Positions 5,049-30,045 of a DNA stretch of 36,124 nucleotides are shown piece by piece; position 1 is the stretch's first letter; the number at the start of each line of letters is the position of its first letter. Below the pieces are notes generated by a model. That model was not told the DNA's origin. It saw only the letters and a program-made list of their open reading frames with translations, and did no database searches. The translations under genes and the position numbers were made by a program. The DNA comes from a virus: the IMG/VR virus record IMGVR_UViG_3300009285_009257, positions 1-36,124 of that record. One strand, written 5' to 3'.

Positions 5049-5504
5049 TTAAATCTCAAAAGTGACTAAAGCCTTTATTTTATCTTTTTTCAAAAAATTT
5101 TGGTATAAATCCTTAGAAAATTGTGCCAACTTCTCAATATAATTCTTCAATCCATCGTGAGTGATAAGCTCTGTTGTCCGCATTGTTAATCCTTCACTAA
5201 TCCCTACAGCTCGTAGGATAGCCACATTTATTCTGCTCCCATCAATCAGCCCAGACCCGAAATCATCAAAAAAATATTCGTCAAAATAAGATACTGACTT
5301 CTTCATTGCCTCATTGATTTTTTCATTGTTGGTATAAAACTGAAGCCCTTCATTGTTGGTATTATACCAACGACCAGAAAGCCCTGTTGAACTCTCGGAT
5401 AGATTTTTAAATAACTCCTCCAATTTTTTTGTTGCCTTGACCTTGAGGAGAAGAGCCTCCCCCTCTTTCACTGCCTCGAATTGTAATAATGTTTTTTTAG
5501 CCAT
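5049..5504 (-). CDS. Hypothetical protein, about 151 aa, first gene of leftward operon
   Basis: I place the start at ATG 5504 (MAKKTLLQFEAV) rather than at a GTG six codons upstream. The ATG has the A/T-rich leader used elsewhere in this window. The protein is soluble and helical at both ends, with a central block ESSTGLSGRWYNTNNEGLQF and a lysine-rich C-terminus. I do not recognise it. It is the first gene after the leftward promoter region and lies 8 nt before the amidoligase gene, so it may be a partner or substrate of that enzyme. That link is speculative. Confidence 0.7.
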   Translation of the reverse strand: MAKKTLLQFEAVKEGEALLLKVKATKKLEELFKNLSESSTGLSGRWYNTNNEGLQFYTNNEKINEAMKKSVSYFDEYFFDDFGSGLIDGSRINVAILRAVGISEGLTMRTTELITHDGLKNYIEKLAQFSKDLYQNFLKKDKIKALVTFEI

Positions 5505-5522
5505 ATGTTTTATCGCTTTCAC

Positions 5523-5885
5523 CTTTTTAATCTCTTATGGGTCAATTTTAAGCCCCATTTTTTGGCTAAAATTGAAAAATAAGCTAAAAATGGCGAAATG
5601 TTAAATAATTTTTGGATCTTTAAGGCTCTAAGGCGGAGGGCAATCGTCATAAGACGAAAGGGCATATGGAACGCCCAACCGCTAAGGGCGGGAATAGCCG
5701 ATGCAGTAATCAACTATTATCTTACCCGCCCCCAAGCCTTGAGCCTCCAAGCTCTACAAGCCAATTACTAACACATTGAGCCGACAAGGTGGATGAATAA
5801 TCACCCATAGTCCCTTTTTTTCGACAAAAATGTGTAAAGATATTAGCCTATATGCCAATGGTACAGTTCATTCCTTCCTATTATT
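5523..5885. other. Leader/intergenic stretch before the leftward operon
   Basis: No credible gene is visible. On the leftward transcript this would be a leader of roughly 370 nt. It contains several small inverted repeats: CGTC-ATAA-GACG at about 5646-5657, and GCCC with GGGC around 5671-5689. There is also an inverted copy of the GGCTCAAGGCT core (5735-5745) and the 14-mer AAGCTCTACAAGCC (5749-5762). That 14-mer is the reverse complement of the hairpin-loop region of the element at 2876-2930. It may be a structured 5' leader. Confidence 0.4.
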
Positions 5886-5914
5886 AGGATACAGTATTTT
5901 TTTCTGCTTGTCAA
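5886..5914 (-). promoter_or_regulatory. Leftward sigma70-like promoter
   Basis: On the minus strand TTGACA (5909-5914) is followed by a 17-nt spacer and TATCCT (5886-5891). It points at the leftward early operon, whose first gene starts about 380 nt downstream. It is the only good match to the consensus that I found between 5.5 and 6.7 kb on this strand. Confidence 0.6.
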
Positions 5915-6149
5915 GTGAGTAGTTTTTTTTATCCACAGCCCAAAGCTAAGAGTCGTAAAAGGTATATTTGCCGACACTTGAAACTAATAGAACAAGCCAA
6001 AAGACTAAAAATGTTACAGTCAAGTCTATATCATTTTCCCCGACAGGTATTTTGCCCCAAGCCCCAAGCCTCAAGCCCTAACCTAAAAAACTTACAAGCC
6101 CCCCCACAACTCACGAGCCTAAAGCCCAAAGGCGGAAGGCTTGTGGTTG

Positions 6150-6213
6150 CGTGGTGGAAGGGTGGGGGGGGAGTGTCTTGGCGGGGACTCCCCCAAATGT
6201 GCCCCCCCCTTAT
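6150..6213. other. Very GC-rich inverted repeat
   Basis: A run of eight G (about 6163-6170) faces a run of eight C (about 6202-6209), and an inner GGGGACTCCCCC hairpin lies between them. In a genome this AT-rich such a structure is conspicuous. It is preceded by GGCGGAAGGCTTG, part of the dispersed repeat family. It could be a strong transcription block between the divergent units or part of an origin. No gene is visible across 5915-6700. Confidence 0.45.
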
Positions 6214-6315
6214 ATATGGTACCCTCACGCTCTGCGGATAAAATTTTAGGAAAGAGTATGTCTATCTGGTTATGTTGCCCCATTGCTTTGTGGTTACTAA
6301 TCTTTTGGTTGCCAG

Positions 6316-6430
6316 CCTTAAGCCTTGAGCTTTTGGCTTTTGGTTTCAGGTTATGGGCTTTAAGCCTTGGGTTCTAAGCCCTAAGCCTTGAGCCCTGAGG
6401 CTTGGGTTCTAAGCCCTAGGCCTCAAAGCC
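6316..6430. repeat. Cluster of AAGCC-type repeats with an 18-nt direct repeat
   Basis: This stretch is built of degenerate AAGCCYTRAGCC units. It includes an exact 18-nt direct repeat, CTTGGGTTCTAAGCCCTA, at 6366-6383 and 6401-6418. The AGCCTTGAGCC core is at 6384-6394, and a one-base variant is at 6321-6331. There is no coding signal. The array resembles protein-binding iterons or recombination substrates, but the function is unknown. Confidence 0.55.
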
Positions 6431-6489
6431 AGGGGTCATCCAAAAAGAGTGTCAAAACAGGGGTCTAAAAAGGCTGAGTGGTACATTAT

Positions 6490-6544
6490 CATTAAAAGTA
6501 TAGTTTCGATGCTGTACGGGGCTTGTAGAACCCCAGAATTGAAG
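6490..6544 (+). ncRNA. Candidate structured RNA/DNA element, copy 2
   Basis: This is the 55-nt partner of 2876-2930. The stem GGGG with CCCC encloses CTTGTAGAA, and AGAATTGAAG follows. The conserved loop together with altered but still pairable stem bases suggests selection on structure. It lies in the gene-free control region, while the first copy lies between genes of the leftward operon. Confidence 0.5.
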
Positions 6545-6589
6545 CTGGAGGTTGAGTGTTAGTTAGGTTTTGTCCTTTTGGTGTGATGG

Positions 6590-6645
6590 TTGGGGGTAGG
6601 GGGGGGGGCAGTTGGGTAGGGTGGTGGAGAGGTGAAAAAGAGTTG
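6590..6645 (+). other. G-rich tract with G-quadruplex potential
   Basis: The + strand carries a G5 run, TA, a G-run of about ten, then GGGTAGGG and GGTGG within about 40 nt. Four or more G-tracts this close could form a quadruplex. The surrounding region has no gene. Assembly or sequencing errors are likely in the longest G-run. Confidence 0.45.
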
Positions 6646-8160: not shown

Positions 8161-8250
8161 ATGCCTGAATATTTGGAGCTTATTGAGGTTGATAACAATA
8201 TTTTTGAAGAGGAGGAGTTTGAAGAGGAAGGTGAGGATAAATATTTATGA
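8161..8250 (+). CDS. Short acidic peptide, 29 aa, coupled to RNA ligase
   Basis: ATG 8161 opens a 29-codon frame rich in Glu (FEEEEFEEEGEDK). Its TGA overlaps the ATG of the RNA ligase gene as ATGA. That overlap and the promoter just upstream suggest it is translated and coupled to the ligase, either as a leader peptide or as a small acidic accessory protein. It is too short for family recognition. Confidence 0.45.
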   Translation: MPEYLELIEVDNNIFEEEEFEEEGEDKYL

Positions 8251-9257
8251 GAAAATTGGTAACAATACAAAGGGTTCGAGAAAAAAGGGTTATCCCAAAA
8301 GCTGATTTCATTGAATCTGTTAGGATAAACGATTGGTGGGTCATTGTTAAAAAAGATGAGTTTAATGTCGGTGATTTAGTTTTATATTATGAGATTGATT
8401 CGTTTTTGCCAATAAAGCCTGAGTATGAGTTTTTGTTAAGAGGATCAAAGCCGAAGAAGATGTTGGTTGATGGTGTTGAGGTCGAAGGTATACGGTTAAA
8501 AACAGTAAAATTGAAAGACACAATAAGCCAAGGGCTTGTAATGCCTATCTCTTTGTTGGGTGTAGGTATAGAGGGTATGGTGGAGGGCTTGGAAGTGTCT
8601 GATTTGCTTGGGGTGATAAAGTATGAAATGCCAATCCCCGCTTATTTATCGGGTAAGGTAAAAGGGTCATTCCCAAATTTTATCCCAAAAACAGATGAAG
8701 AGAGGATTCAGAACATGGGCGGTGTTTTGTCGAGGTTCTATGTCACAGAAAAATTAGACGGATCGTCCATTACATTTTATAAATTTGATGGAGTATTTGG
8801 TGTTTGTAGTCGTAATTTGGAATTAGAGGAGAGTGACGTTACTCAGTGGCGATTAGCCAAAGAGCTTAATCTGCCAGATAAGCTTCCTGACAACATGGCT
8901 TTGCAAGGAGAGCTTGTAGGCGAGGGTATTCAAAAAAATCCATTAAAACTATCCGGGCAAAAGGTATTTTTCTTTAATGCTTATAATATAAAATCAGGGT
9001 GTTTTTTGGATTTTATAGATTTTGTTCAATTGTGTGAAGCATTAAACCTTGACGTTGTGCCTGTAATTGATGATAACTTTATCTTGCCAAAAACAGTTGA
9101 TGATATGTTAAGATATGCTGATGGCAAGAGCATGCTAAATCCAGAGGTTGATCGTGAGGGTGTTGTTGTTAGGTCAAAGGTAGAGTCTGGATATAGGGGT
9201 GGGAGGTTATCGTTTAAGGCTATTTCTAATAAATATCTTTTAGACTATGACGCATAA
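8247..9257 (+). CDS. RNA ligase, DraRnl (Rnl5)-like, 336 aa
   Basis: This is an ATP-dependent RNA ligase. Motif I is TEKLDGSS with the adenylated lysine at K169. The substrate-binding GVCSRN (about 185-190), motif IV REGVVVRS (303-310) and motif V SFKAIS (322-327) are all in order. The long N-terminal region before motif I (about 160 residues, beta-rich) fits the OB-fold placed N-terminally in the Deinococcus Rnl family, which seals nicks in RNA duplexes. In phages such enzymes can repair tRNAs cut by host anticodon nucleases, and a tRNA gene lies 570 nt downstream. The start is set by the ATGA overlap with the preceding peptide. Confidence 0.88.
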   Translation: MRKLVTIQRVREKRVIPKADFIESVRINDWWVIVKKDEFNVGDLVLYYEIDSFLPIKPEYEFLLRGSKPKKMLVDGVEVEGIRLKTVKLKDTISQGLVMPISLLGVGIEGMVEGLEVSDLLGVIKYEMPIPAYLSGKVKGSFPNFIPKTDEERIQNMGGVLSRFYVTEKLDGSSITFYKFDGVFGVCSRNLELEESDVTQWRLAKELNLPDKLPDNMALQGELVGEGIQKNPLKLSGQKVFFFNAYNIKSGCFLDFIDFVQLCEALNLDVVPVIDDNFILPKTVDDMLRYADGKSMLNPEVDREGVVVRSKVESGYRGGRLSFKAISNKYLLDYDA

Positions 9258-9825: not shown

Positions 9826-9901
9826 GCCTGTGTAGCTCAATTGGTAGAGTAGTTGATCTGTAATCAAATGGTTGTTGGTTCAAGTCCTTCCATGGGCTCC
9901 A
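9826..9901 (+). tRNA. tRNA-Thr(UGU)-like, with degenerate features
   Basis: 76 nt fold as a tRNA. The acceptor stem is GCCTGTG/CATGGGC (two G.U pairs), the D arm GCTC/GAGT, the anticodon stem GTTGA/TCAAA, the loop TCTGTAA with anticodon TGT at 9859-9861, the T loop TTCAAGT, the discriminator T, and CCA is encoded (9899-9901). Oddities: position 33 is C, not the near-universal U. G27-A43 is a mismatch. The T stem GTTGG/CCTTC has two T-T mismatches. It is either a decaying or an unusual phage tRNA. tRNA-Tyr was considered and rejected because that reading does not pair. Confidence 0.75.
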
Positions 9902-10274: not shown

Positions 10275-10604
10275 ATGGTAAATTTTAAAGCCATTAAAGA
10301 TGCTATACTTTTCCGCCCTCTTGCTAGCGCTACAAGTAAAAGCGGTTTAATGATACCACTTTCTGGGGGGCATACATCCAATATAGGTAAGGTTATCTCT
10401 GTTGGGGGTGAGGTTAAGAGTGTAAAAGTTGGTGATTATATTGTTGTTAATTCGTATCAATGTCCTCTTTATTATGATGAGGGAAAAACATATAACATAT
10501 ACCGAGAGGCTGATGTCCTTGGAATATTAGAAGGATTAGAGGTTGATGAAACCCAAACGTTTGATGCTGATAATAATAAACCTAAAATTGCAACACTTAA
10601 ATAA
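10275..10604 (+). CDS. GroES-like co-chaperonin (Cpn10), 109 aa
   Basis: The order of blocks follows Cpn10: an N-terminal strand with FRPL, a mobile-loop region (ATSKSGLMIPLSGGHTS), GKVISVGG, VKVGDYIVVNSY, then YNIYREADVLGIL. This is the small lid subunit that caps the GroEL chamber. Phages such as T4 (gp31) encode their own lid to help fold capsid protein. No GroEL-like gene lies in the window, so it would work with the host's chaperonin. The C-terminal 20 residues are a poorly conserved polar tail. The family call is from motif order. Confidence 0.78.
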   Translation: MVNFKAIKDAILFRPLASATSKSGLMIPLSGGHTSNIGKVISVGGEVKSVKVGDYIVVNSYQCPLYYDEGKTYNIYREADVLGILEGLEVDETQTFDADNNKPKIATLK

Positions 10605-10623
10605 ACATTAATGCAGTTCCATT

Positions 10624-11460
10624 ATGAAAATAGGATTTGTTGGTCAGGGGTTTATAGGAAAAAATTTAGCTAATAATTTTGAAACTAGAGGGTATAAAGA
10701 TATTGTTAGATATTCGTTGGAATCCGAGTATGTTAGCAATAAAGATAAAATTAAAGAGTGTGATGTCGTTTTCTTTGCTCTGCCAACACCAACAACGCAG
10801 AATGGATTTGATGATAGTATTTTAGTTAATACAATTAATGAAGTTACAAAAGAAGGCCAAATTATTGTGGTTAAATCAACTGTGATTCCTAATACATTAA
10901 GAGATTTATCTTGTAAACATAAAGATAGAATAATTTTACACAGCCCTGAGTTTTTAACTGAGGCGACTGCCCGTGAAGATACAGATAATCCTGAACGAAA
11001 TATTATAGGTATAGCTACTGATGCTGACACTGATGTGGCTAAATCTATTATTGCTATTTTGCCCAAAGCTCCTTATAATACCATTTGTAGTTATGAGGAA
11101 TCTTCACTTATAAAATATGCTGGCAATTGTTATTTTTATGTTAAGAATATGTTTTTCAATATCATGTTTGATTTGGCTGTTGCTTACAATTGTTCGTATG
11201 ACGTTATCAGAGAGGCTGTTATAAACGATTCTCGTATCCATAGAGTGCATACTGAGCCAACCCATAAAAACGGCAGGGGGGCAGGCGGAGATTGTTTGGT
11301 GAAAGACTTTGCTACATTGAGGCAGTTGTGCATTGACTCCATGTTACCATTAGAGTTTTTAACTGTTATAAGGGCAAATGAGAAAATGAATATTGCATTA
11401 TTGAAATCAAGCAATAAAGACTTGGATATTTTACATGGCGTCTATGGAGAAGATGTATGA
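10624..11460 (+). CDS. UDP-glucose/GDP-mannose dehydrogenase family protein, shortened, 278 aa
   Basis: The N-terminal Rossmann domain has GFVGQGFIG at residues 4-12. VVFFALPTPT (48-57) and VKSTVIPNTL follow. SPEFLTEATA (107-116) and IKYAGN (163-168) are next, and the catalytic cysteine is C224 in GAGGDCLVKD. These residues belong to enzymes that oxidise UDP-sugars to uronic acids with NAD. The usual C-terminal UDP-binding domain (about 100 residues) is missing, since the chain ends at 278. Either the activity is altered or the substrate is smaller. It fits with the glycan operon at 30.8-36.1 kb. Confidence 0.85.
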   Translation: MKIGFVGQGFIGKNLANNFETRGYKDIVRYSLESEYVSNKDKIKECDVVFFALPTPTTQNGFDDSILVNTINEVTKEGQIIVVKSTVIPNTLRDLSCKHKDRIILHSPEFLTEATAREDTDNPERNIIGIATDADTDVAKSIIAILPKAPYNTICSYEESSLIKYAGNCYFYVKNMFFNIMFDLAVAYNCSYDVIREAVINDSRIHRVHTEPTHKNGRGAGGDCLVKDFATLRQLCIDSMLPLEFLTVIRANEKMNIALLKSSNKDLDILHGVYGEDV

Positions 11461-11743
11461 CAAACAAAGTTTTTTCAGAGATGTTAGAGGATATTGTAAT
11501 TACATCCCAACTGATGTTGTCAGTGATGTTTATTATGGTATACTTAAAGTAATATTGAATAAATTAAAAGATAATGGCAGCATTACTCTTCCAAACTTTG
11601 GTAGAATTTTAGTAGAAAGGCGTAAGGCTAGACGTATATTTAATGTCAACACTAAAGTATACGATGTGGCAGGTAGCTCGAATATCATTAAAATTGCTCC
11701 TTGTAACGAACTCCGTGCTTATATAAATAAACAATTGTTTTAA
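11453..11743 (+). CDS. HU/IHF-family DNA-binding protein, about 96 aa
   Basis: The pattern YYGILKVILNKLKDNGSITL, PNFGRILVERRKARRIFN, then KIAPCNELRAYINKQL matches the DNABII fold. It has two N-terminal helices, the beta arm with the GxITLPNFG turn, and a C-terminal helix. I start it at ATG 11453 (MYDKQSFF), which overlaps the dehydrogenase stop. ATG 11435 would add six residues. It would bend or compact phage DNA, possibly aiding packaging or late transcription. A terminator follows about 130 nt downstream, so this is the last middle gene. Confidence 0.8.
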   Translation: MYDKQSFFRDVRGYCNYIPTDVVSDVYYGILKVILNKLKDNGSITLPNFGRILVERRKARRIFNVNTKVYDVAGSSNIIKIAPCNELRAYINKQLF

Positions 11744-11748
11744 ATCTG

Positions 11749-19671: not shown

Positions 19672-19712
19672 TCTCATTTCAAGGTATTGGGATTATGGTT
19701 TAAAGATTTTAT

Positions 19713-22700
19713 ATGGCACAATTTCCATATTATAGCGAGCCTAAAAATGGGTGGGCACCCGTGCAGTAATGCACGGAGGGTAATATTGGAAAACAACAAA
19801 ATGCTGGAAATTCTTGTTAGAAATTCATTACCTAAGAGTAAAAATATGGATTTAGAGAAAATCAGCAGCGAGAATATTAATAAAGAATTAGCCTATTTGT
19901 TTGGAGTTTATCTTACTGATGGGTGTATATCTAAAAGTAAAGATAAATATGGATATTATTATAATTTTTCTTTAAGGACGATAGACATTGAGTTTGCAGA
20001 TAGAACACTTGCTTGTATAAAACTGTTAATACCGTCTTGTCGTGCGAATATTAATCGCCTCGAGCCGATAGACAGGCATTGGCCAAACGGTCACGTGTCA
20101 AAAACACAAGTACAATACTGTATAAATGTTGGGTTTAAAAAGTTAAAAGATATATTTTGGGAGCAGACAAACAAGAAAACGCATATACCCTTTGTCATAT
20201 GGCGTGCACCAGATGTGATAAAAAAACATTTTATCGCAGGAGTGATGGATGGTGATGGGTGGATATCTAAAACTTTGAGACCAGATAAGGAAAACATTCA
20301 ATATAGAATTGGTGTTGGCAAAACTGAGGGTAGTTGGATATTAGAGTTTAAAGACTTTTTAGAAAAATTAGGTGTAAAAACATTAAAAATAGAACGTAAT
20401 TTCTCTTCTGGTAGAAAAAAGGTGTTAATCTGTTTTGGGATAAGAGTAGAATCGTTTATTGATCACGGTTTGTTTTTCACTATATTCAGAAAACAAAGTA
20501 GAATAATTGATTTTATTAATAGACGTTCAGAGACTAAACGTTGTGAATCCTTTGGGATTAAGATATAGTCCGATCTTTATAGAGATATAAAGTAAACATT
20601 GATTGACCCACAATCAGGGGGCGGTGGCTTCTGCTGCTAGAGATACTTCAACGTCATCTACTGAGCAGCGATTAGTAGTGGATGCCGTTGATAAAGTCTT
20701 CTTACTTGAACCTCGCAAGCATCCGCTTACAACCTTACTGACTACTGTTGGTAAAGTGTATGATGGTAAGGCTTGGACGGGAGCTGGTATTCTTAAAAAG
20801 GAAACAGGCAACCCAGAGTTTAAAAAATCCACTTGGACTCTGGTTTAACAAAAACTTTGCTTATATGCTGGAAACTCCGAGTATCTAATAGTACTGATTA
20901 GTAAAAATCTATTAGTGCGGACAATCAGCAGGGAAAAAATAAAATATATGATTAATGATAGTGACTTTTTTTGGTTGGCCGGAATTATTGATGGAGAGGG
21001 ATATTTAACAACCAATAAACGTCAAGGAGTTCATAAGAAAAGAAACAATGGTAATGGACAATATTCGTTTATTACAAGGATAGGTGTTGGTAATACTGAT
21101 GTTGAATTGATAAAGAAGGTTTCTGAAATATTTTATGTGCTTGGAGCTAAATTTTATTTTACTCTTCATACTCCTAATAAAAAGTTTGTCAATGCAATGG
21201 ATTATCTGTCTATTAACGTAGAGGGATATAGATCAACTAAAAAAATACTAGATGCAATAATAGATAAATTGCACTCTAACAAAAAAAGACAAGCTAAAAA
21301 AATACTCGAATACATAGAGTATAGACTATCAATGTTTCAAAAGAGAAATGTTAATGGTACACTGTGCTCTAAAATTAAGAAAGAGCAGTTTGAGTCTATT
21401 GATAAAAAGTTCGAAGAATCTCTTAGATATCTTAAGCATTATCAAATTTTGCCCTCAACGACTAGACGCAAAGCGTCTACCCCTTTAGAAATAATAGGTG
21501 GTAGTAAAGATATAGTCTGATCTATATAGCGATATATAGAGGCATATGCCCCAGAGTAAGTCTGGTAACAAGCTTCAATGAAGTGGTTTAGAAAATTCTC
21601 GGACCACTAAAAATTTAACTATTTGCTGGAATAACCTAAAGTCATAATTACTACTAAGTAAAAATATTATGAATAATACAATGGTCAATCAGCAGGTAAC
21701 TACACATCAAATTGCATGGTTAGCGGGCGTATGGGATGGAGAGGGAACATTCACCATAGTATATGATACTAATAAACGATATGTTCCAAGAATAACTCTA
21801 TCTAACACCGATGTAGTAATGATAAATGAGATTATAAAAATATTTGATGCATCTGGCATCAATGGTCACATTTGGCAAGAAACAACATCTAGAAAACCTA
21901 ATCATAAAAAAGCTTATCACATAACGGTCAATAAAATGGAAGACGTTAAGGTGATAACAAAATTGATGCTACCGTATCTGATTTCAAAAAAGCCAAGGGC
22001 TGAATTACTTTTAAGATTCTTAGAATCTAGGAGTTATTATAAGTCTAAGGCTGAGAGAGATTCTAAAACTGGTCGTGTTCTTGGGATAATAAAACAAGGA
22101 TATAGTGATGAAGAAAAATCATTATTTGACCAGATGAAGGAATTAAATCAAGTAGGTATTAAAGTAGAAACCTCAGAGACTACACGTTAAACATCCTTAT
22201 GGATGATGATATAGTCCGACCTCGTGCGATATCACGAGAATTACACAGAAATGATGTAATACCCAATTATGGGTTAACAAATGCGAAGATTTTTATGGCG
22301 GACGTTACGCAAAGGTAAGTGGAACTTATTCCGCTTCAGGTGGTGTAACAATTACTGTAACTAGTGCTGGGTCTAGCTCGGCTTATATTTTCACGGTTGG
22401 TGACGTTATTCTTAACGCCAGAACTGGTGAAAGAATGCTTGTAGCTACGATTGCTGGTGCAACAACAATTACTATTGCTTCAGGTGGCCGTTCGCTCGGT
22501 GCGACTGCGGCTGCTGCTGGAGCTGATGGTGATGGTTTGTTCTTGATTGGTAATGCGAATGAGGAAAATTCAAGTGCTAAGAACATTAACACTACACAAT
22601 CCTCTCCGCTGACCAACTATACTTTAATAAAAATTTGGGTATAGTAAAATTCAACTATATGCTGGGATATCTTGTTATGGTGTAAATAGGATACTAGGCG

Positions 22701-25783: not shown

Positions 25784-26680
25784 ATGGCACACGTAAAAAC
25801 AGTTAGTGATCGTTATCACTTTCTCTATGACCCATATCTTTCAGGATTCGACACAACAGAATTGAGAAGGTTTAGTGGCGATGCGAAAGTTTTGGACGGG
25901 AAAATTAGATTACACACTGCCAGTATTAGTACCCTCAGGGTGTTTATGCACGGTAACTTTGAAATGAAGCTTACTGTGCCGACAGCCCCAACAGGCGGAG
26001 ATTCTCGAGTTTTTGGTTTATATTCAAAAGCATTCGGGAATCGGAATGCTGCGTACTTTTTTATCAGTGGAACTAATTTTTACGTTAGATCTTATAACGA
26101 TGATAGTGCAACCCCAGAACAGACAACTGTTCCGTGGGATGCAACATGGACAAATACACCAACTTCTTTTGAGGTTCGGACAAGAATAGAACGTGTTGAA
26201 TTTTGGATTGGCAATGGTGATGATAAACGTAAGGTTGCAGAGCATAATACCACATTCCCAAAGCAGGTTTTACTCCCTGTATATTTTTCTAATGTAGCAA
26301 ATGATGCTTTTTATATTAACCTATTAAACTTTGGGGAGGTTAGAAAATCAATCATTGTTCCAAGTAATACGTATTTATCAAGCACCTCAAGCACCTCAAG
26401 CTCTACAAGTTCTAGTACCTCAAGCTCTACAAGCTCAAGTACTTCAAGCTCTACGTCTTCAAGTACCTCAAGCTCTACAAGTTCTAGTACCTCAAGCTCT
26501 ACGTCTTCAAGTACTTCAAGCTCTACAAGCTCAAGTACTTCAAGCTCTACGTCTTCAAGTACCTCAAGCTCTACAAGCTCTACATCTTCAAGTACTTCAA
26601 GCACAAGCTCAAGCACAAGCTCAAGTACCACAAGTTCTACAAGCTCAAGTACTTCAAGTTCTACAAGTTTGCTCGGATAG
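25784..26680 (+). CDS. Virion-type protein with C-terminal Ser/Thr repeat stalk, 298 aa
   Basis: Residues 1-195 form a beta-sandwich-like domain (LRVFMHGNFEMKLTVPTAPT, AAYFFISGTNFYVRSYNDDS, RVEFWIGNGDDKRKVAEHNT), similar in style to lectin or laminin-G-like phage surface domains. Residues 199-295 are almost only Ser and Thr in STSSS units, then SLLG. Such a stalk resembles mucin-like linkers and is a natural O-glycosylation target. The phage encodes glycosyltransferases at 30.8 kb and beyond. A receptor-binding or head-fibre role is plausible but unproved. Long ORFs in other frames here arise from the repeat. Confidence 0.8.
   Translation: MAHVKTVSDRYHFLYDPYLSGFDTTELRRFSGDAKVLDGKIRLHTASISTLRVFMHGNFEMKLTVPTAPTGGDSRVFGLYSKAFGNRNAAYFFISGTNFYVRSYNDDSATPEQTTVPWDATWTNTPTSFEVRTRIERVEFWIGNGDDKRKVAEHNTTFPKQVLLPVYFSNVANDAFYINLLNFGEVRKSIIVPSNTYLSSTSSTSSSTSSSTSSSTSSSTSSSTSSSTSSSTSSSTSSSTSSSTSSSTSSSTSSSTSSSTSSSTSSTSSSTSSTSSSTSSSTTSSTSSSTSSSTSLLG
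26378..26668 (+). repeat. Tandem 15-nt/30-nt coding repeat (STSSS units)
   Basis: Imperfect 15-nt units alternate between TCAAGCTCTACAAGT-like and TCAAGTACTTCAAGC-like sequences, giving about 19-20 units. Codon variants (AGC/TCA/TCT/AGT for Ser, ACC/ACT/ACA/ACG for Thr) are mixed within the array. That suggests repeated duplication plus drift under protein-level constraint. The copy number may vary between isolates and may be misassembled. Confidence 0.85.
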
Positions 26681-26691
26681 TTTAGTTATTA

Positions 26692-26719
26692 CTAAGGCAA
26701 TAAAAACTTATTGCCTTAG
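26692..26719 (+). terminator. Perfect 12-bp hairpin after repeat protein
   Basis: CTAAGGCAATAA (26692-26703) pairs fully with TTATTGCCTTAG (26708-26719) around an AAAC loop. There is no T-run afterwards, so it may act as a processing or stability element, or terminate in the reverse sense. It lies between the stalk-protein gene and the coiled-coil membrane gene. Confidence 0.5.
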
Positions 26720-26748: not shown

Positions 26749-27063
26749 ATGGAGCTACAAAATAACGACAGCATAATCCGCAAGGTATTAAAAAGCGAAA
26801 TAACAATGGTTGTGGCGTTGATTGGCTGTATCTCGGGTGTTATTTTTTGGATTGTTAACCCACAAAATGCTCTGGAGAAACAGATAATCAGACTTGAATC
26901 ACAGATTGAGAATAATGAGATTGTGGCATCAAAACTGCAAGCAATTAAAGACAATGATTTACACGAGATACAGCTTAGAATGGATAGAATTGAGAGCCGA
27001 CAGATTCAACAACTTGAATCCACAGCTAGAATTGAGTCATTACTGAAAAGCCACACAGAATAG
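26749..27063 (+). CDS. Membrane-anchored coiled-coil protein, 104 aa
   Basis: A short polar N-terminus is followed by a membrane helix at about residues 19-37 (TMVVALIGCISGVIFWIVNP). A long coiled coil to residue 100 follows (LEKQIIRLESQIENNEIVAS and ELRMDRIESRQIQQL-like heptads). The topology (helix, then periplasmic or cytoplasmic coil) resembles inner-membrane spanins and some holin partners, but the order is opposite to XhlA. It lies downstream of the structural genes. A lysis role is a reasonable guess only. Confidence 0.6.
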   Translation: MELQNNDSIIRKVLKSEITMVVALIGCISGVIFWIVNPQNALEKQIIRLESQIENNEIVASKLQAIKDNDLHEIQLRMDRIESRQIQQLESTARIESLLKSHTE

Positions 27064-27087: not shown

Positions 27088-27315
27088 ATGAGCCGATTGC
27101 AGTGTGGTTGTGGGCGAAAAACTGGACAGATTGATGACGGCAAGAAAGGAACATACACTTTAGAATGTGAAGAGTGCTGTAAAACTGGCGATTACACGAA
27201 GTCAAGCTGTTGGGACCACGAAAGGGACAAGGCTGAAGATAAGAAAGTGGCGTGTGCGATGAAATACAAGGCGGCAATGGAAGGTGTGAAACCTCTCAAG
27301 AAAAGGAAGAAGTAA
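27088..27315 (+). CDS. Zinc-binding miniprotein, 75 aa, with strong ribosome-binding site
   Basis: AAAGGAGG ends 4 nt before the ATG, a textbook Shine-Dalgarno site that most genes here lack. The peptide contains CGCG at the start, a CEECC cluster and two more cysteines, then a basic tail (KPLKKRKK). It probably binds a metal. It opens a tight cassette of small genes through 28777. The function is unknown. Confidence 0.65.
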   Translation: MSRLQCGCGRKTGQIDDGKKGTYTLECEECCKTGDYTKSSCWDHERDKAEDKKVACAMKYKAAMEGVKPLKKRKK

Positions 27316-27393
27316 GTGAAAGTGTTGCTATTGATTGTGATTATAATTCTCTTGATGTTGTTTGACCACCACTACCCGAAAGGAAGGCATTGA
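27316..27393 (+). CDS. Possible 25-aa membrane peptide (GTG start)
   Basis: GTG 27316 follows the previous TAA directly, with AAGGA about 10 nt upstream. The peptide VKVLLLIVIIILLMLFDHHY ends PKGRH. Its TGA overlaps the ATG of the next gene (TGATG). The hydrophobic span is long enough to cross a membrane. The overlap and the ribosome-binding site support translation, but the length makes it uncertain. Confidence 0.4.
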   Translation: MKVLLLIVIIILLMLFDHHYPKGRH

Positions 27394-27605
27394 TGAGCGA
27401 GGTCAAATATCGCTGTTGGTGCAAGTTTTGTGAAGCTAGTGTTTGGCAGGTTTATATCGCATATACGCACACGACTGGGGCTGTATTAGGTGTTTTGACA
27501 ACTTTATGTGTTGATAGGAGGTGTAGAGGTACAAACTATCATTACATCGCTCATACGGCATTTGTAGATGGCGAGGAAGCCATTAGAAAGGAGCTTGTAC
27601 GATGA
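27393..27605 (+). CDS. Zinc-ribbon miniprotein, 70 aa
   Basis: The start ATG 27393 follows GAAAGGAAGG. Cysteines occur as CWCKFC near the N-terminus and CVDRRCRG at about 47-54, consistent with a small zinc ribbon. A beta/helix pattern follows. Its stop overlaps the next start (ATGA). It is one of four adjacent Cys-rich proteins that look like divergent paralogues, or at least like folds. Confidence 0.65.
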   Translation: MSEVKYRCWCKFCEASVWQVYIAYTHTTGAVLGVLTTLCVDRRCRGTNYHYIAHTAFVDGEEAIRKELVR

Positions 27606-27802
27606 GCAGAGTGGCTGTGTTCAAAGGAGCGACTGGTGTGTGTGTGAAATGTAAATTTCATGTCATATTCAAGGTTGTTGATGTTGTCTACATTACTAAA
27701 CGGACAATTCTGATAATGGTATGTCATAAGTGTGGTCATGTCATCAAAGTTTGCTTAACCAAAGCCAATATGGCTTGGCTGATAGACTGGGGGGACAAAT
27801 GA
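27602..27802 (+). CDS. Zinc-ribbon miniprotein, 66 aa
   Basis: CVKC (about 14-17) and CHKCGH (about 41-46) form a simple two-knuckle ribbon, with hydrophobic strands between (VDVVYITKRTILIMV). AAAGGAG precedes its ATG within the end of the previous gene, and both ends overlap neighbours by 4 nt. It probably binds zinc. The partner is unknown. Confidence 0.65.
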   Translation: MSRVAVFKGATGVCVKCKFHVIFKVVDVVYITKRTILIMVCHKCGHVIKVCLTKANMAWLIDWGDK

Positions 27803-28026
27803 ACAACGAGCGGTGGCGACTACTGATAAAGGCATTTAATTGTCCATACTGTCATGATGTGACTGAACAGGTAGCTGATCCTGCATCAATGGATATTCTT
27901 GAAGGTAATTTGGTATGTAAGTACATCTGTTTAGTGTGTGGCAATGCTTGGACACACGAGCTCGGTGAACTTGAAGCCATGAAAAAGCTTTTTTGTGAGG
28001 AGGGAAAAAATGAAAACAAAGTATAA
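27799..28026 (+). CDS. Zinc-ribbon miniprotein, 75 aa
   Basis: ATG 27799 overlaps the previous TGA and has GGGGGGA just upstream. CPYC (about 15-18) and CLVCGN (about 44-49) make a zinc ribbon, followed by an acidic helix (HELGELEAMKKLFCEEG). The metallophosphoesterase start lies inside its 3' end. It could chaperone or regulate that enzyme, which is an inference from overlap only. Confidence 0.65.
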   Translation: MNNERWRLLIKAFNCPYCHDVTEQVADPASMDILEGNLVCKYICLVCGNAWTHELGELEAMKKLFCEEGKNENKV

Positions 28027-28777
28027 AAAATATCCAAAGACGGTCATTGCAAACGATTTGCATATACCGTATGAGGATAAAAAAGCAGTTGAGCTGTGGT
28101 TTCAGTTTATTCAATGGTTCAAGCCTGAATTGATTGTGCTAAATGGCGATGTAGCGGATTTTTTCATGGTGTCTAAATTTTCTCGCAGTCCACTTGAAGG
28201 CAAACGATTGAAAGAAGAGATTGATTTGGTCAAGAAGTTTTTAGAGCGGATTCGCAAGGTGTGTCCGCATGCAAGAGTTATTTACATTTTGGGGAATCAT
28301 GAAATTAGACTGGAAAAGTATATGATGCGAAACGCTGGTGAGATATTTGAGCTGGTAAAGATTGAAGACTTGCTCCATATTGACGGCGTTGAACTGGTAA
28401 ATGAAAGCACGACAGAGAATTTTGTTCAGGTAGTAGATTTGTTCATTGGTCATTATAACAGGGTGAGCAAGCACGCAGGCTATACGGTTAAGAATATCAT
28501 GGATGATAGGGGAGTGAATATTGTTCAGGCTCATACGCACCGTATGGGGTTTTATACTAAGAGATTATTGAATGGCAAGACTTTATATGGCTGGGAAAAC
28601 GGTTGTCTATGTAATTTAAATCCTCCTTATGTGGTAGTGCCGAACTGGCAGTTGGGCTTTTCGGTGATAGACCCGTATTTCAATGGTGAGAAATACACTT
28701 ATTTCCTCATCAAAATAAATAACGGTGGTAATGGCTATCATTTTAAGTTCAATGGGAAAGTGTTTCATGTTAAGTAA
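28010..28777 (+). CDS. Calcineurin-like metallophosphoesterase, 255 aa
   Basis: The two-metal phosphoesterase blocks appear in order: NDLHIPY with D16/H18, LNGDVAD (45-51), GNHE (95-98), GHYN with H148, and AHTH (174-177). GAGGAGGG lies 6 nt before ATG 28010, which decides the start. Substrates of this superfamily range from nucleic acids to cyclic nucleotides and phosphoproteins. In phages they may act in DNA processing or host-signal removal. All metal ligands are present, so it should be active. The substrate is unknown. Confidence 0.85.
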   Translation: MKTKYKKYPKTVIANDLHIPYEDKKAVELWFQFIQWFKPELIVLNGDVADFFMVSKFSRSPLEGKRLKEEIDLVKKFLERIRKVCPHARVIYILGNHEIRLEKYMMRNAGEIFELVKIEDLLHIDGVELVNESTTENFVQVVDLFIGHYNRVSKHAGYTVKNIMDDRGVNIVQAHTHRMGFYTKRLLNGKTLYGWENGCLCNLNPPYVVVPNWQLGFSVIDPYFNGEKYTYFLIKINNGGNGYHFKFNGKVFHVK

Positions 28778-28778
28778 A

Positions 28779-28800
28779 GGGGGGCAAAGATTTACTCCCC
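28779..28800 (+). terminator. Terminator-like hairpin after phosphoesterase gene
   Basis: GGGGGG (28779-28784) pairs with CTCCCC (28795-28800, one G.T), and the loop is CAAAGATTTA. Only a broken T-rich stretch (TAATTTC) follows, so termination may be partial. It closes the Shine-Dalgarno-bearing cassette. Confidence 0.5.
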
Positions 28801-28911
28801 TAATTTCAAAAACAATTATTTTAGATATTCAATGTTCATTTATAACTATGGTTAAGTTAAATAAAGATACTTTAATTAAAATCATTGACCCTAGTTATTA
28901 GTGAATTTCAG

Positions 28912-28972
28912 ATAAGTCATAAACTAACATTAACCTACGTTAATAAGTCATAACCTAACATTAACCTATGTT
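28912..28972. repeat. Tandem 30-nt direct repeat, two copies
   Basis: Copies at 28912-28941 and 28943-28972 (ATAAGTCATAA, then a CTAACATTAACCTA core) differ at two positions. They lie in a 190-nt gene-free gap between the phosphoesterase cassette and the peptidase operon, possibly as a regulatory protein-binding site. I see no good sigma70 -35 next to them. Confidence 0.6.
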
Positions 28973-29069
28973 TATCTTTGACTTTCTTTTCAACGATTAT
29001 CCGTGGCAAAGTCTGTCGGTATTTATATTTTTAATATTACTTTGGTTTATTTATCCTTATATAAAATAG
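28968..29069 (+). CDS. Possible 33-aa membrane peptide
   Basis: ATG 28968 opens a short frame, MFIFDFLFNDYPWQSLSVFI followed by FLILLWFIYPYIK, with one hydrophobic span. It stops 1 nt before the peptidase ATG, suggesting coupling. It begins inside the second 30-nt repeat. Size and composition leave it uncertain. Confidence 0.35.
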   Translation: MFIFDFLFNDYPWQSLSVFIFLILLWFIYPYIK

Positions 29070-29070
29070 T

Positions 29071-30045
29071 ATGACGAATTACGGATATAAACAAGAAAAA
29101 TATCCTAAGAATAGCCATTGGTATTTTGGTGGTTATACTGGGATTATAGATGATTTAGTTGTTGATGATTGGACTGCTTATTTGCCTAGTTTTGAAAGGC
29201 AAAAGAAACAAGTTGATATGTTTGCTTGTGTGACATTTTCTGCCTTGAATGTTATTGAAACCATTTTTAATTACTATATTGCAGAAGATATTCTAAGTAA
29301 TGATGATTATGTTTGGTTAAAAGAACGAGGGTACATTGATATTGCTACTGATAAGATAAATTTCAGCGATAGGTATATTGCCAAGTTAAGTGGTACTACT
29401 AAAAGTGGTAATTATGTTTATAAAGTTGGAGATGCTATTCGTGAATATGGACTTATACCTGAATGTGATTGGGATTTTCCTGACATTCTTACATGGGAAC
29501 AATATTATCAAGAAGTACCTGAAGATTTAAAACGAAAAGGTAAAGAGTTCATAGAGAGATTTCCGATTAATTATGAGTTTGTTTTAAGTGAGGATATTGC
29601 AGAAGCATTAAAATATTCACCACTTCAAGTCGGAGTATACGCATGGACAACACCTGTTAATGGTGTTTATCCGGACAATAATAAAAGAAGGAATCATTTC
29701 GTGATGAAGTTTAGAAACAATACGATATTTGACCATTATTTGCCTGATATAAAAAGACTTGAAGATGGATATAAACATACGGGTATAACAAAATATAAAA
29801 TAACATTGAATAAACCTATGGGGTATAACATTCCGAACAATACACTTATACAGTTAATTGAGGGAGTGGGAGGATTTGCACTTGTTTTAGACGGGAAAAA
29901 GATAGTAGATGATTTAGCTAAGGTCCAAGCTAGTTTCTTGATGAGAAACAATGGGTACATAATGGAAAAGTGTCTTACGGTAAAACAAGATGTATGGGAT
30001 TCTATGCCCACTATAAACCTAAAAAAAGAACCAATAGGCGAGTAA
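29071..30045 (+). CDS. Papain-like cysteine peptidase, 324 aa
   Basis: The likely catalytic set is a Gln a few residues before C53 in QVDMFACVTFSALN, H209 in RRNHFVMKF, and an acidic residue in FDHYLPD (D221). The spacing and the hydrophobic strand after His match C1-type peptidases. No signal peptide is visible. It lies before two holin-like genes, so a cell-wall peptide-cleaving lysin is possible. A virion or prohead protease is the alternative. The family is called from the active-site pattern only. Confidence 0.65.
   Translation: MTNYGYKQEKYPKNSHWYFGGYTGIIDDLVVDDWTAYLPSFERQKKQVDMFACVTFSALNVIETIFNYYIAEDILSNDDYVWLKERGYIDIATDKINFSDRYIAKLSGTTKSGNYVYKVGDAIREYGLIPECDWDFPDILTWEQYYQEVPEDLKRKGKEFIERFPINYEFVLSEDIAEALKYSPLQVGVYAWTTPVNGVYPDNNKRRNHFVMKFRNNTIFDHYLPDIKRLEDGYKHTGITKYKITLNKPMGYNIPNNTLIQLIEGVGGFALVLDGKKIVDDLAKVQASFLMRNNGYIMEKCLTVKQDVWDSMPTINLKKEPIGE

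Follow-up and report, generated by a model that had tools for sequence, protein, structure and literature searches.

Why a phage whose genes otherwise start behind A/T-rich leaders should carry a cassette in which every gene starts behind a strong Shine-Dalgarno (SD) site is the question raised by this locus. The window, the whole stretch of 36,124 bases that was analysed, is IMG/VR virus record IMGVR_UViG_3300009285_009257 and is from a tailed phage, with genes for terminase, portal and capsid. A sister contig (G001, IMGVR_UViG_3300025087_001553, 43,263 bases) is from the same phage: the 12 window proteins with a match there are 100% identical over the stretches compared. It adds about 16.5 kb to the left of the window and stops within the Ser/Thr repeat ahead of the cassette. 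This repeat (26330-26680) is the Thr/Ser-rich tail of the protein encoded at 25784, the end of the contig within it is probably an assembly break, and repeats that are similar or of the GYTGYTG type occur in relatives. Between 19687 and 24304 the major capsid gene appears to be interrupted several times by stretches that contain LAGLIDADG ORFs (those at 19687, 21669 and 22764 from Pfam matches, that at 20915 by eye). Group I intron matches in this region number three, all sub-threshold (E 3e-10, 7e-7 and 1.5e-6), and the capsid ORF of the relative G003 is unbroken at 336 aa.

Leaders in the rest of the phage have a median pairing energy of -1.7 (kcal/mol here and below), calculated with an assumed anti-SD tail that may differ from that of the host, and a G frequency of 0.124. 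They resemble the leaders of a Flavobacterium phage (median -0.7, G 0.09), unlike those of Pseudomonas phage 119X (-7.4, G 0.275). We use "SD-less" for this property of leaders, with no host phylum implied. The cassette and its flanks are given in Table 1.

Table 1. Features of the SD-led cassette and its flanks, in window coordinates.
Feature	Position	Strand	Description	SD and pairing (kcal/mol)
'up'	26749..27063	+	104-aa membrane/coiled-coil protein; left neighbour, outside cassette	SD-less (-2.5)
Z1	27088..27315	+	75-aa Cys-rich miniprotein	AAAGGAGG, -12.1
Candidate sixth gene	27316..27393	+	GTG-started 25-aa membrane ORF between Z1 and Z2	-6.5 only
Z2	27393..27605	+	70-aa Cys-rich miniprotein	AAAGGAAGG, -12.0
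Z3	27602..27802	+	66-aa zinc-ribbon-like miniprotein, two CxxC; ATGA junction	AAAGGAG, -12.5
Z4	27799..28026	+	75-aa zinc-ribbon-like miniprotein, two CxxC; ATGA junction	-10.9
MPE	28010..28777	+	255-aa calcineurin-like metallophosphoesterase	GAGGAGGG, -12.5
Hairpin	28778..28801	+	G-rich, closes cassette, no T-run; fold -10.7 for the 61-nt stretch 28770-28830	
Direct repeat	28912..28973	+	31 nt, two copies, in gap 3' of cassette	
'dn'	29071..30045	+	right neighbour, outside cassette; papain-like by eye only	SD-less (1.8)

All five cassette genes, at their predicted starts, have strong SD sites. The comparison set is 67 other genes predicted in the window and the phage's left extension, each 60 aa or longer: only 2 reach -9.5 when scored at the first ATG, and 5/67 when the most favourable early start is taken. 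The two are an RNA ligase gene at 8247 and an antisense ORF at 22383. The RNA ligase gene (8247-9257), near a tRNA-Thr at 9826, has the clearest sense-strand strong SD-like leader outside the cassette (-11.5). Cassette genes are also distinguished by third-position GC (GC3; 0.431 vs 0.297, sd 0.046, 42 genes). A GC-rich stretch at 5500-6600 has no convincing genes and coincides with a sign change in GC skew and a flip in gene direction. Junctions within the cassette are tight, with ATGA at Z2/Z3 and Z3/Z4, TGATG before Z2 and a 17-nt overlap of Z4 and MPE. The small membrane ORF that ends in this TGATG with Z2 was overlooked in the earlier note; another cassette (L039) includes an SD-led membrane ORF of 28 aa. 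A promoter scan at the cassette was no better than shuffles. A perfect 10-bp hairpin (CTAAGGCAAT/ATTGCCTTAG, 26692-26719) lies directly ahead of 'up'.

The earlier note had described the five genes, their strong SD sites and their overlapping ATGA/TGATG junctions correctly, in coordinates as in leaders. Its other descriptive claims need adjustment. The remaining leaders are indeed A/T-rich, and two of those genes reach -9.5; the higher GC is borne out at third codon positions but not in plain GC, which is equally high at 5.5-6.5 kb and 24-25 kb. All four miniproteins are Cys-rich, but two CxxC knuckles are found in Z3 and Z4 only, Z1 and Z2 being irregular. The hairpin said to resemble a terminator is present, but it lacks a T-run and was not listed by a terminator scan, and what was called a repeat gap holds just one direct repeat in two copies.

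Gene order in two relatives indicates how the cassette came to lie where it does. In G004 (L013, L031) a Ser/Thr-rich protein is followed by 'up' (10361-10690; 30.5% identity over 59 aa in L013, E 7e-5), a papain-family peptidase (10683-11747; PF00112, E 2.9e-5) and a gene 59% identical to the window's 30796 gene, with no gene between 'up' and its next gene. The window's 'up' also has weak PHROG matches to holin/spanin-like families, and 'dn' does not resemble the L013 peptidase. In G003, a coiled-coil and membrane gene of the 'up' type (L026 1842-2144) precedes a homologue of 'dn' (L026:2238-3125; 33.6% over 140 aa, E 1.6e-12). Judged by gene order, the 1.7-kb block is either an insertion in the window phage or a loss in both relatives, and insertion is simpler. 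A search for Z4 across 12 relatives found none. That the block is an acquired module, as proposed earlier, is well supported by its SD leaders, its GC3 and the two syntenic relatives without it, whereas "recently" is something that we would only infer: identity to the nearest MPE relatives is only about 45%, and these mostly reside in SD-less phages.

The MPE belongs to a recognizable family (PF00149, E 1.1e-7, 32.9 bits over a cut-off of 21.5; phrog_221, E 1.1e-38) and has intact D-x-H, GDxxD, GNH, H and HxH motifs (D16, H18, D47, D50, N96, H97, H148, H175, H177); metal-ligand substitutions occur in two members of the family (L039 H18Q, L085 D47E). The closest folds to its AF2 model (pLDDT 85.4, pTM 0.88) are the exonuclease subunit of archaeal PolD (DP1; Z 16.8, rmsd 2.9, 207 aligned), LpxH (Z 14.2; 3.1, 178), Mre11 (Z 13.5; 3.5, 184) and SbcD, the absence of other folds from this PDB comparison list not being evidence. 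By tblastn, 1087 named phages have a relative, with the best about 30 to 34% identical; 844 of them are mycobacteriophages, and two Chryseobacterium phage records also hold an MPE; a scan of genome contigs gave 2 loci only, in Acidobacteria and Desulfuromonadales MAGs. The small proteins are harder to place. None of them passes curated family cut-offs, and Z1 has no family over cut-off among Pfam and PHROG profiles. Z3 has weak matches to DUF7479 and Lar-like families (best Lar-like PHROG E 0.018), and the Z4 model (AF2, pLDDT 72) has as top PDB matches, none significant, the zinc ribbons of NrdR and an RNA polymerase II subunit. From their sequences, Z3 and Z4 look like zinc ribbons. Com and Lar profiles scored below cut-off against a protein of L057.

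Is the association of SD-led genes with an MPE peculiar to this phage? Five further distinct SD-less phages have an SD-led MPE; two of them (L212, L220) came to light in a scan that followed recognition of the pattern, and in four, other small genes (for a zinc ribbon, a membrane peptide or HNH) are SD-led too. Across the six phages 22/23 cassette genes, some of them with starts picked with the SD in view, pair at -9 kcal/mol or better, the exception being L002 10767 at only -7.2, against 0/23 for mock positions. The nearest MPE, 45% identical, is in one SD-less phage seen as two contigs (L002, L003); it follows a small coiled-coil and membrane gene, zinc-ribbon ORFs flank it on both sides (two upstream, three downstream), junctions overlap, and all six genes are SD-led to some degree (-7.2 to -15.8). 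The L039 cassette consists of an MPE, the membrane ORF and two zinc-ribbon-like ORFs, all SD-led; the ORFs after these have no strong SDs and resemble amidase, holin and lysozyme by sequence. L085 has an SD-led MPE alone (-17.2). In L212 an HNH-like ORF, itself SD-led, follows the MPE (-13.3), and in L220 five SD-led genes stand in a row: membrane ORF, HNH-like ORF, secreted-looking ORF, zinc ribbon and MPE. In two SD-less phages the MPE module has a neighbouring HNH-like ORF with a strong SD (L273:14818-15030; L274:17717-18037, reverse complement), and an HNH-like ORF without a strong SD lies ahead of the MPE in L038. The SD-using phages L057 and L008 show the same association of MPE and zinc ribbons.

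Outside MPE neighbourhoods, 7/571 genes of 45 AT-rich SD-less loci reach -9.5, a low background that is partly by construction, the SD-less class being defined by low SD scores. A two-gene SD-led run near 11846 in L142 is the only such run away from an MPE in the SD-less loci scanned. The initial classification counted 56 distinct MPE loci as SD-less, and in 5 of these the MPE leader pairs at -8 or better. Four of the 5 are in phages discussed here, and the other loci mostly hold more distant MPE subfamilies. The fifth, L095, was dropped although its leader (-8.8) met the thresholds: it has 65% GC, begins with GTG and falls in a different part of the first MPE tree. L270 (-14.0) was dropped as an MPE fragment at a contig edge without a readable leader. 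Mini zinc-ribbon ORFs are enriched within 1.5 kb of MPEs, with 37 near (0.10/kb) vs 20 far (0.02/kb) in 131 distinct loci, which are related to one another so that significance is overstated; without the six loci seen first the figures are 22 and 18 (0.062 vs 0.020/kb, 125 loci). The 131-locus figure is the fair one, a "close" set of 24 loci having been picked by eye from the tree. Recurrence and enrichment together support the earlier view that zinc ribbons and phosphoesterase belong together. No publication describing such cassettes appeared among the open-licence papers listed.

The scenario that we favour, and to which we give about an even chance, is that the cassette is a mobile accessory (moron-like) module imported from an SD-using gene pool. 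The block would have been inserted between the membrane/coiled-coil gene and the next gene of a phage whose own genes are SD-less, retaining the SD leaders, coupled small genes and GC3 of its donors. At least five other SD-less phages would have received similar modules, usually beside tail-fibre or lysis genes, and the marks of import would fade with long residence. In each of the six phages the MPE has a higher GC3 than the phage itself (z 2.31, 4.40, 1.14, 2.14, 1.18 and 3.14), though weakly in L039 and L212, and over 53 SD-less MPE loci SD strength tracks the GC3 shift (Spearman -0.44, p 0.001). In L038, a close relative from the same clade, the SD is weak (-7.4) and the GC3 z is -0.57; both marks are lost there. 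As to function, the MPE may act as a two-metal phosphodiesterase on host nucleic acid or nucleotides, with the mini zinc ribbons as small nucleic-acid- or protein-binding helpers co-made with it by translational coupling. The likely benefit would be counter-defence or takeover of the host, in line with reports on distant mycobacteriophage homologues; by analogy with these (about 30% identity), counter-defence would perhaps be directed at nucleic acid. The defence or counter-defence role suggested in the earlier note is likewise inferred from such homologues.

Phylogeny argues against import. A first MPE tree was a quick one; in the later, careful tree, from which the clade supports are taken, six of the 11 members of one clade (100/100) are from SD-less phages, and five of these six are SD-led. 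The closest MPEs (L036, L212) are in SD-less phages and form with the window a sub-clade (97/82) on long branches that is wholly SD-less and yet SD-led. Since it holds no SD-using phage, independent imports need unsampled donors. This pattern fits a rival reading in which the SDs are kept by selection, the cassette being a switchable SD-gated operon read mainly by ribosomes with an exposed anti-SD, for example ribosomes poor in bS21 during infection. We regard this as rather unlikely, but several observations fit it. SDs persist in six distinct phages whose MPEs are no more than about 46% identical, and the two phages picked up by the later scan conform too. Many SD-using relatives have weaker SDs: a strong MPE SD is present in 6/7 of these phages vs 11/34 SD-using phages (Fisher p 0.014), or vs 5/12 when only the strongest SD users are considered (p 0.08). 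There is also precedent in PMC9976891, which reports that Flavobacterium ribosomes without bS21 prefer SD mRNAs. Against selection, SD strength accompanies foreign GC3, the SD was lost in L038, no bS21 gene was found in the 9 phage records searched, and Bacteroidota hosts are presumed. Most cassette energies (-9 to -13) are also weaker than those that the same paper gives for rpsU (-14 to -21), which were obtained with another tail. Import is favoured over selection, but the two may combine if the module travels within a pool where SDs matter.

More doubtful still is that the hosts do use SDs, most phage genes being weakly initiated and the cassette merely a highly translated operon. A Bacteroidota promoter motif is not enriched in the window (3 vs 2.55 expected), and the nearest named relatives of capsid and portal are from phages of Pseudomonadota and cyanobacteria (about 30% identity or less). 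Comparisons of the portal and a glycosyltransferase gave no decisive pointer to a host; a DNA-level search of named phages with the window gave no match. However, the leaders match those of the Flavobacterium phage and not those of 119X, and the high-output portal and tail genes have no SDs. It is highly improbable that chance produced the SD-like strings, or that they are by-products of overlap and of coding constraint in genes rich in G and Cys: several SDs do lie within the preceding gene, but the mock windows and the first genes of cassettes, which are SD-led without overlapping, contradict this, and overlap alone does not explain the SDs because five overlapping starts outside the cassette pair at 0.2 to -7.4.

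According to PMC9976891, only rpsU has an obvious SD in Flavobacteriales. A set of strong-SD genes in SD-less phages would for this reason be either a tracer of gene flow across translation systems or a first sign that viruses use SD-specialized ribosomes. The latter, an SD-gated accessory module read only by ribosomes with an exposed anti-SD and hence a specialized-ribosome switch used by a virus, we think unlikely. The recurrence of the cassette suggests a travelling accessory module that crosses bacteria with different modes of starting protein synthesis, and the partnership of MPE and mini zinc ribbons that it reveals is a candidate for counter-defence.

Lar, which alleviates restriction, and Com of phage Mu, a translational activator, are small zinc-ribbon phage proteins. 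The cassette miniproteins are like them in size and CxxC knuckles, but their matches are sub-threshold and several occur per cassette. Like phage morons, the cassette sits between conserved genes, is of odd composition and is missing in the relatives G004 and G003; unlike them, it is multi-gene and recurs as a set. Its hairpin has no T-run, and the 24-nt gap ahead of it gives no promoter evidence. With the SD-led rpsU of Bacteroidota it shares a strong SD in an otherwise SD-less setting, but it is a whole phage operon and not a ribosomal gene, and its pairing is weaker. The closest parallels are the PHROG 221 MPEs of cluster A mycobacteriophages (Bxb1 gp47, D29 gp66 and A10ZJ24 gp48), which are likewise stand-alone phage proteins of about 250 aa with the calcineurin-like fold and motifs, and which match over most of their length. 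In PMC12287305, Bxb1 gp47 is described as a recombination directionality factor that lacks phosphoesterase activity, and D29 gp66 appears, from a reference title, as a 2',3'-cyclic nucleotide phosphodiesterase; A10ZJ24 gp48 has a phosphodiesterase activity, which is abolished by D10G, and this protein harms host DNA integrity, silences defence genes and counters defence. The window MPE differs from these in its identity of about 30% and in having no known integrase partner, and whereas the MPE of the mycobacteriophage MyraDee lies among replication genes, that of the window lies with zinc ribbons in the late region.
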